Shown one piece after another: positions 9,401-12,400 of a stretch of 64,000 bases of DNA (its first letter is position 1; each line of letters opens with the position of its first letter). The stretch comes from Capitulum mitella (taxonomy: Eukaryota; Arthropoda; Thecostraca; Pollicipedomorpha; Pollicipedidae): positions 6,804,586-6,868,585 of the forward strand of contig CP099849.1 in assembly GCA_030062745.1 (NCBI GenBank). The letters are read 5' to 3'. The notes beneath the pieces were generated by a model that saw only the letters and a list, made by a program, of their open reading frames with translations, made no database searches and had not been told where the DNA came from. The position numbers and the translations under genes were made by a program.

Positions 9401-12400
9401 TGGATGAGTGGTTTTCCACGCTGCCGTGGGTCACATCACCTCAGTTAGAGGCGATCATCCAATGATGGCCCACTACGTCGGAGCATGTCAGTCTGAGGGT
9501 AGCAAGCAGGAGCGGTTTGCTGCCGTTCCGTGCCTTGACACTAACACTGACACTCCCTCCGTCCGTCGGCAGGGTGATTACGGCGATGTGGCGCCGCGCC
9601 GGGCCCTGCGGCAGCGGCTCCAGTGCAGGTCGTTCAAGTGGTACCTGGAGACCATCTACCCGGAGCTCTTCCTGCCCGGGGACGCGGTGGCCAGCGGCGA
9701 GGTATGTCCGGCCGGCCGGCGCCCGGGTGCGGCCGGGCCGTCCACTGTCGGAGGGACGTGCAGGACCCACGGTGTTCCTCACGGCTGGTCGCTCTGGAGC
9801 CGCGTTGGGGCTGAAGTAGTGCGGGAATGGTTCGGGGAAGCAGCTAAACGTGACGCTGGTAATTAAGTCCTGAATCTCAAATACTTGTGGGATAATTTGC
9901 TGAAACGATCGTTTTTAGTGCCGTTATTTTCGTCTCAAACGAAACAGGTAATGACTTTAATGGGCTTTCAGTGAATGGTGAATGGTTACGAATTTTCGTT
10001 GTACGCATGCTGTCTGCTTCGTACGGTTTGTTGGCCTGTTTAGTTAACTTTTCTTTTCATTGTGTATCAGTTATTGCCTGAGTTAACTTTTCTGTTCGTT
10101 GTTGTATCGGTTATTGCTTCCATGGGAACGCCCTTGGCCTAAGATTTTCGCAGTTTCGTACGTTGTACTTGTGATCCTGTGCATTGCCTCCTGAGTTTGC
10201 GAGATTAATCAAATCTGTTTGTCCGTACTTTTGATCCTTGGTGTTCGATACCACCGTATCTTTGTAGTGGCCTAGCCTGCCTGCCTGTCTCCGGGAAGGG
10301 GCACAATACCAAATAGTGCCGTCTTTCGTGGGAAGCGATGAACTCACCCCAGGGATGTTGCGAACCGACCGGAAACCCACTGACCACTGTTTATCTGTTC
10401 CTCGATGTTCTTCTCACGCCATACTCTACAGCACGGCTTCATGTATGACATTTACTCACCGCGCCACTGCAGTACGTCCCACTGTATACTAACATGTATC
10501 GTTCTGTTTTGTTCGACTGCCTAGTGTCTAAGCATACGGAAGTACCTTGGCGATTTTCAGCAGGCGACGCTTTAGAAGTATCATGTTCTGGGTGCCTCTT
10601 CCGGCATTCTTTTCTCGTTCTTTGCAATTTCGGGTGTGACATAAGAAGCATCCGTCACTGTGACGCCCTTTTATCCAACCAATATGACAGCAGCGCCTGG
10701 TGAGTACAGACCACAGTCTCTCGACTCAGAGGGGAAAGCCCAACACAGCACGGAGCATAGGGCCCTCCCCCGAACTGGGAGCAGGTAGTGACCTGCTGAG
10801 GTGACCCGAGCAGGGAGCGTGCTGACCCTGGACGCCGCCAGGTCCGCGGCCAGGCGGCGGCGGCCGGCCTGTGTCTAGACTCGCCGGGCCGCCGGCGCGA
10901 CCTGCACCGGCCGGTGGGCGTGTACCCCTGCCACGGCCGGGGCGGTAACCAGGTGGGTATGGATCGCGCCGGCCGCACAGGGCGACGCCGCCCGGGGGAG
11001 CTGCGGCGACGCGAGCCGGACCGGTGCCAGGACCCCGCTGAAGTGCCAACCCCCCTCCGAGCGATCCTGTTTTCGGAGAAGTTGCCCGCCTTCTGGGCAG
11101 AATTTTAGAGAATTTGACTCGGGGCTCGGTCCGGTTCGCGCTCGGGTGGCGCCATCTATAGATGTCGCTCCGGAGGGGAGCCGGGTAGGCGCAGTCGGCC
11201 GGTCGCATGCGTGTCGTGTCGTCTGTAGCGCCTCGTGTCTGTTGCGTGTCCGCTAGATCCGGCATGATGTGTCCAGCACGTGCCTGGACTCGGCGTGCGA
11301 GACCAAGGACCTGTATAAGCCTGTGGGCACATACCCGTGCCATCTGCAAGGTGGGAACCAGGTGAGTGATGCCTTCTGAGCCTCGTAACATTGACGTGCC
11401 CGGCCTCGAAACCTGTAAAGCTCCCCAGTTTGTGCCTCCGACGCTGCATGGTCCGCCTTTTGCAGGCAGCTGCAACCCTAAGTATGTTGTCCGAAAATTT
11501 TATGCGTCTGTTGTGCAGCATTGGCTTAGTTAACAAGCATGAGAGTCATTACTTCGGAAGGCGTTTGTTGGTCCCATGCAAATTGTTGTGTTTGTAATTT
11601 TAATGGAAACAATTTAACTTTATGTAAATCTGCTTTTTTATTGATCTTTTTCGATCCGTCCTTCGACAAATATGTGGTTTTTCCTTAATTGTACTTAAAA
11701 CGAAGCTTTCATGACGCACGTAATTGATTTCATGATACTGGTAATTTCTCTGCAGTCCCAAGTTCCTTATGGCGGATGCGTTACTTATCACCAGTTGGCT
11801 TAATGTAATGACCAGCACATTTAGTCGCGAAGTCTAGGAGCGTGGGACAGATGATGTGAACGGATTCCTTTGCACCTCTTGGGCAAACGTGCATGGGTCG
11901 GCGGAGAGACAGGTCCAGTTCTCGGTGAGCGGGCCCATCCTACCGTGCCGCGCTAAACACGTGCCTCCGCTCCGGCCGCAGTACTGGATGCTGAGCAAGG
12001 CCGGCGAAATTCGGCGCGACGAGGCGTGCCTGGACTACGCGGGCTCCGAGGTGATCCTGTACCCGTGCCACGGCAGCAAGGGCAACCAGCAGTGGGAGTA
12101 CGACGCGACGGTGAGCGGCGGCCATCGGCGACGGTTCAGGTGTCGGAGAGAGGGGGAGCCTTCCGGAGGGAGGTGATCCGTGCGCAGGCTCGTGCATCTG
12201 AGACGTCGGGGTGGAGGAAATCCGTAACGTCTGGTGCACGCGTTTTTCCGCCGTCTCCCAGTATGCCTGGTGGAAACGAGAACGGTTGGAGGAGGAGTCG
12301 TGCTGCAAAGGGAAGGAAGGGAACTATTCGCCGTTCCCGGTTGAGACGGTCTGGTGGTGGTCATTGTTCGACTGACTTGCAGGCGCACCTACTGCTTCAC

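Follow-up and report, generated by a model that had tools for sequence, protein, structure and literature searches.

Within the DNA analysed here, a stretch of 64,000 nucleotides (the window), a GalNAc-transferase gene carries two adjacent exons that encode versions of one segment of its lectin domain. The arrangement raises the question whether the two exons are used one at a time and, if so, whether the choice between them alters the substrates of the enzyme, as splicing does in Drosophila pgant9. We consider it likely that the gene is a pgant9 orthologue, one of two copies, with tandem-duplicated, alternatively spliced lectin alpha-repeat exons used one per transcript. We infer that splicing is one-or-other, under tissue control and of consequence for substrate choice. 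This kind of switch is known from the fly; what is new here is the presence of the lectin exon pair in two pgant9-type copies, beside a pgant5-type switch.

The window gene and its duplicated lectin exon

The exons of the gene run along the plus strand from 235 to 12526, and at least one more catalytic exon is located upstream, outside the window. The catalytic part is encoded by an exon with the DSH motif (235-400), by e2 (6225-6373, ending in GGFDWNLQ), by e3 (8224-8406, starting with FNWHAIPER) and by the flexible-loop exon e4 (8760-8945, TWMCGG to YERIGPEL), which is single-copy in this gene. Exon e5 (9573-9701) holds the linker and the start of the lectin domain and ends with AVASGE in phase 0, e6 (11982-12110, YWML to WEYDAT) encodes the beta repeat, and e7 (12383-12526) encodes the gamma repeat and the C-terminus, ending in NATKLV and the stop codon. 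The predicted product would be a Golgi polypeptide GalNAc-transferase with a ricin-type lectin domain. The intron at 401-6224 contains a pure (TC)63 array (1894-2019), an imperfect (TA)n array (3508-3618) whose flank is palindromic by eye, and, just past 3650, a frame that, judged by eye, resembles the terminal part of a Penelope-type or LINE element. Downstream of the gene, a GC-rich unit of 23 nt is repeated ten times (14290-14519).

The C-terminal part was compared with solved structures only, and hence only with those fly PGANTs that have one. The best matches are PGANT9A (6E4Q, 346.6 bits) and PGANT9B (6E4R, 340.1 bits), followed by GALNT1 (199.3 bits), and the order is unchanged when the second exon version replaces the first (345.7, 336.4 and 196.8 bits). 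Two catalytic exons alone score 185.5 bits against PGANT9 and 137.6 bits against the next family. The window gene is thus closer to PGANT9 than to other GalNAc-transferases with a solved structure.

The duplicated segment is the alpha repeat. Exon A (10842-10952, plus strand) has 111 nt and encodes 37 amino acids; exon B (11257-11361, plus strand) has 105 nt and encodes 35 amino acids, including an extra Cys, and an intron of 304 nt (10953-11256) lies between them. The positions and peptides that the first-pass annotation had given for both exons proved exact on re-reading, and each exon fits in phase 0, as it had proposed, between the SGE that ends at 9701 and the YWML that starts at 11982. 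Both are bordered by AG upstream and GT downstream, and both lengths are multiples of three. That the two are alignable versions of one segment is borne out by a mutual tblastn match in the 64-kb window (E 4e-10, 63% identity over 27 amino acids), a likeness far above chance. The likeness is also seen in the DNA, where 60 nt are 70% identical and the match extends across the donor site. With the fly PGANT9A segment as the query, B is found at 2e-9 and A at 2e-8 in the same window. When e2 to e7, A and B were each searched for a second copy in the 64-kb window, none was found for e2, e3, e4, e5, e6 or e7, so that among the exons covered only the alpha exon is doubled; the beta-repeat exon e6 has weak matches to A (E 0.001) and B (E 0.07), as expected for repeats of one fold. 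The divergence between A and B amounts to a dN of 0.46 and a dS of 1.63 (NG86).

The two versions differ in charge (K+R-D-E). The net charge is +4 for the whole of exon A and -1 for the whole of exon B, and the variable loop that follows CLD carries +3 in A (10881-10913, plus strand) and 0 in B (11290-11322, plus strand). A basic version and a near neutral to acidic one had been proposed. The loop charges agree with basic versus near neutral, and “acidic” is too strong a word for B.

Use of one exon or both

In the arrangement we favour, the spliceosome would join 9701 to either A or B, and then to 11982. That each transcript carries one exon would follow from the fly gene and from the fold. 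Because A and B are symmetric (phase 0), with lengths of 111 and 105 nt, a transcript with both of them or with neither would stay in frame, as would any other combination; by contrast, in the pgant5-type gene described below, the two 181-nt exons would disrupt the frame when used together or both skipped. The pair might therefore not be strictly mutually exclusive, some transcripts carrying A and B together or skipping either one. We regard this as quite unlikely, as double inclusion would place two alpha segments in one beta-trefoil, and the two fly cDNA clones described in PMC6115407 carry one exon apiece.

The introns were searched for signals that might bear on exclusivity. No U12 branch-site string was found in the A-B intron, the single U12-like string being in the downstream intron. 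With introns of 304 nt and, in the second gene copy, 282 nt, exclusivity is unlikely to come from steric hindrance or from U2/U12 incompatibility. The best block shared by the A-B intron and its 282-nt counterpart has 14 nt (E 4.4), and intron-to-intron blocks against that gene copy have E values of 1.3 or higher. Three pairs of inverted repeats of at least 14 nt were found across 9702-12000, all of 14-15 nt. For 10790-11270 the predicted fold is of ordinary stability (z -1.47), being matched by 7 of 100 shuffled sequences, and the window has no Rfam match at the gathering score. Splice sites were scored with a simple weight matrix, which gave 12.6 (B) and 10.0 (A) for the donors and 4.6 (B), 3.0 (A) and 1.9 (e3) for the acceptors. 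Since the acceptor of e3, which is in every isoform of the gene model, scores below both, the differences between A and B say little.

A second gene copy and the age of the pair

Seven other GalNAc-transferase or lectin loci (L001-L004 and L006-L008) were scanned over about 3 kb each, and one of them, L006 on contig C6, was the sole locus with two alpha exons; L004 and L008 had no alpha match at all within their ~3 kb. The exons of this C6 gene correspond to those of the window gene, and its best match among solved structures is PGANT9A (308 bits), compared with 183 bits for GALNT1. Its alpha exons, A2 (VRNLAMGGKTCLDSPARRKDLHKPVGLYPCHSQGGNQ) and B2 (IRNVATNICVDSPCDPKDLYKAVGTYPCHKQGGNQ), stand in the same order as A and B, 282 nt apart, with AG and GT at both. 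They share with the window pair their lengths, their loop charges (+3 and 0) and the extra Cys of the B type. Thus adjacent, homologous exons of similar length and the same phase, with conserved splice sites, are found in the window gene and likewise in the C6 gene. A search of the genome with A2 and the next exon gave 12 matches, and among the best candidates scored, two alpha copies were present only in these two genes.

The frames next to the two genes were also compared. Frames in the window at 18198-23404 (minus strand) have matches in the same order and orientation at 43977-49007 of the C6 stretch, which is the reverse complement of L013-L017. The two scanned frames that overlap 18198-23404 have no Pfam match, and the 10 of the window's 23 long stop-to-stop frames that were scanned against Pfam gave zero matches. 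As frames neighbouring pgant9 were duplicated along with it, a whole block, rather than one gene, seems to have been copied. For barnacles a whole-genome duplication more than 247 million years old is reported in PMC11331182, and it is our guess that the two pgant9 blocks derive from it.

Between the two gene copies, 13 of 37 residues differ in exon A and 12 of 35 in exon B. The estimates for A against A2 are a dN of 0.29 and a dS of 0.86 (37 codons), and those for B against B2 a dN of 0.20 and a dS of 1.61 (35 codons; both NG86); the values for A against B likewise rest on 35-37 codons. These values bear on whether one of the exons is dead, most likely the GC-rich exon A of the window, or whether the window copy as a whole is a pseudogene. 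Exon A has a low acceptor score and has changed faster. Furthermore, exon 235-400 of the window is 1 base longer than its C6 counterpart, which amounts to a one-base frame break between RARLLG and ARHSTGEV relative to the C6 copy. This break may be an assembly error, or it is a real lesion, in which case the window copy would make no full enzyme. The DSH motif lies in the frame-broken exon, and HVGHIFRK (its metal-ligand His assigned from the fly paper and an alignment by eye) is also present in the window gene; in the C6 copy, whose counterpart of exon 235-400 stays in frame throughout, both are unbroken. Against a dead exon, both copies retain the open frame, the AG and GT sites, the lectin residues and the loop charge, and dN is below dS. 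Loss of an exon or of the whole window copy is therefore, in our judgement, highly improbable.

If the exon had been duplicated separately in each gene, A would be expected to pair with B and A2 with B2. With the proteins, the pairing of A with A2 and of B with B2 outscores this per-gene tree, which the AU test rejects under three models (p 0.018, 0.008 and 0.011) and the SH test under one of the three (p 0.070, 0.046 and 0.061). With the DNA of the four exons, that same pairing ranks first under all three models, and the per-gene tree is rejected by the AU test under one of three (p 0.111, 0.060 and 0.041). The common lengths, loop charges and B-type Cys argue against separate duplication as well. 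Independent exon duplication in each gene copy is thus disfavoured by the sequences.

Whether the pair is as old as the one in the fly was examined with trees of four and seven sequences (1000 replicates, which IQ-TREE flagged as few for the AU test) and of nine sequences under three models. The tree that joins A with fly 9A and B with fly 9B is not rejected with nine sequences (AU p 0.13-0.19); with four and seven sequences the AU values, from too few replicates, are 0.07 and 0.10. It falls outside the RELL 95% set in both smaller sets and under one of three models in the nine-sequence set. With nine sequences, the best-scoring trees, ahead of that one, either leave fly 9B outside or keep the two lineages apart.

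Those scores suit an origin of the pair in this lineage apart from fly 8A/8B, B having been copied from an A-like exon. Such convergence would also fit the motif DL(H/Y)(K/R), which is present in all four exons here and absent from both fly segments, the greater closeness of B and B2 to fly 9A than to fly 9B, and the argument, made in PMC9741552, that exon substitution events often evolve in parallel. On the other side, a two-residue insertion is common to A, A2 and fly 9A in a hand alignment and missing from B, B2, fly 9B and three outgroups, A2 and fly 9A are identical at 24 of 37 positions, and the tree of shared origin escapes rejection. We judge convergence and its opposite to be evenly balanced. 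The 24 shared positions and the common insertion make A probably the counterpart of fly 8A; for B as the counterpart of fly 8B, the evidence is divided.

Charge, substrate choice and the known switches

The first-pass annotation had drawn an analogy with fly Pgant9, and the analogy is closer than it had stated: PGANT9 is the nearest solved relative, and the boundaries coincide. Over their aligned part, the fly 9A and 9B chains differ only between GE and the junction of GGNQ with YWML, the boundaries of the window pair; the fly boundaries are those given by the paper and by a comparison of the two chains. According to that paper, fly pgant9 has splice variants of exon 8, of which A carries a net positive and B a net negative charge; the larval salivary gland uses mainly B, and A is the main form in most of the other tissues studied (PMC6115407). 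PGANT9A used the acidic peptide PTTTE and PGANT9B the basic peptide PTTTK, the neutral peptide being used by both, and a loop lysine in the PGANT9A structure is ~14 A from the UDP phosphate (PMC6115407). Loop charges are +3 in A and A2, 0 in B and B2, +4 in fly 9A and -2 in fly 9B; over the whole exon, the charge is -1 in B and +1 in B2 versus -4 in fly 9B.

By reference to the fly enzyme assays, the following working is proposed. Both versions would retain the GalNAc-binding residues, and the variation would fall in a loop that lies near the active site in the fly structures. The basic loop of exon A would favour acidic or neutral acceptor peptides and repel basic ones, and the neutral loop of exon B would be more permissive to basic peptides. 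Because B is neutral, not acidic, a weaker switch is the safer prediction, and exon choice is expected to switch substrates in a basic-versus-neutral manner.

Splicing may also be real while charge does not steer substrates, the loops having drifted or the versions differing in the binding of GalNAc-glycopeptides, in stability or in partner binding. Consistent with this, B is merely neutral, and comparison with fly 9A gives 22 mismatches in 37 positions for the window exon A and 13 in 37 for A2. Furthermore, the GalNAc contacts reported for GalNAc-T2 in PMC4432651 (Asp458, Tyr471, His474 and Asn479) are, by counting along the segment, present in all four exons A, B, A2 and B2. However, the loop charges of +3 and 0 are identical in the two gene copies despite the changes at 13 of 37 and 12 of 35 residues, and the fly 9A loop is basic as well. 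We therefore find it rather doubtful that charge is without a role in substrate choice.

A second charge-related switch was found in the same genome, on contig C11 near 21.61 Mb (L020). The gene has two catalytic-loop exons of 181 nt each (C11:21608301-21608481 and C11:21608844-21609024), which are identical at 35 of 60 residues and, at this length, break the frame if both or neither are used. With either alternative, the catalytic part matches GALNT1 best (153 and 173 bits), and the stretch examined contains one alpha exon. The loop exons read FRDKSPY and FRKSTPY, the triplets of fly PGANT5A and PGANT5B. Across the genome, the loop exon has 21 matches at what we count as 16 loci, including a weak one that contains a stop, and two full copies occur only at C11; with the catalytic-loop exon as the query, viral_contigs yielded 45 pattern matches, none of which was confirmed. 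According to a preprint (PMC12776162), fly PGANT5 is the closest fly relative of GALNT1, and PGANT5A and PGANT5B differ within 398-457 (60 positions), where A has D419-K420-S421 and B has K419-S420-T421; D419 raises PGANT5 activity on basic mucin peptides. The C11 gene is taken as a pgant5 orthologue, PGANT5 being without a solved structure in the search.

The presence of both kinds of switch in another genome, with the pgant9 pair in both copies and the pgant5 specificity residues kept, suggests that a charge preference controlled by splicing is a general feature of pgant9- and pgant5-type enzymes. A broader reading, which we put just short of even, is that charge-tuning exon switches in GalNAc-transferases form an old two-locus system. 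The pgant5 switch (DKS, KST) would date from the ancestor of the fly and this animal, the pgant9 switch would have been kept through a block or whole-genome duplication, and splicing would match the variants to secreted mucins or adhesive proteins of different charge. If so, one genome would offer four lectin variants of pgant9 and two loop variants of pgant5. Both fly switches are tied to salivary-gland mucins in PMC6115407 and PMC12776162, and O-GalNAc sites are predicted in the barnacle cement-gland protein lcp1-122k (PMC7230167). The adhesive gland of barnacles is thus a tissue of interest for exon choice.

Literature on this exon pair outside flies was not found in a search that most subscription papers lie beyond; the accessible part of PMC5740500 has nothing on the pair, and the gene names are absent from PMC3303723. 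The closest known system is fly pgant9 (CG30463) with its exons 8A and 8B, which likewise has two versions of the lectin alpha repeat, the same boundaries of the variable stretch, and a basic version of 37 amino acids. It differs in that the second version is acidic in the fly and neutral here, in the extra Cys of B here, and in that the pair is present in two genes here and in the one gene described in the fly paper. Fly pgant5A/5B resembles the window pair in that splicing of a GalNAc-transferase alters the handling of charged mucin peptides (PMC12776162, preprint), but the exon switched there is the catalytic flexible loop, whereas in the window it is the lectin alpha repeat. The tandem-duplicated exons of human GALNT13 and C. 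elegans gly-5 belong to the same family and are likewise cases of homologous exon substitution, and these events are grouped with fly Pgant5, not with pgant9, in PMC9741552.
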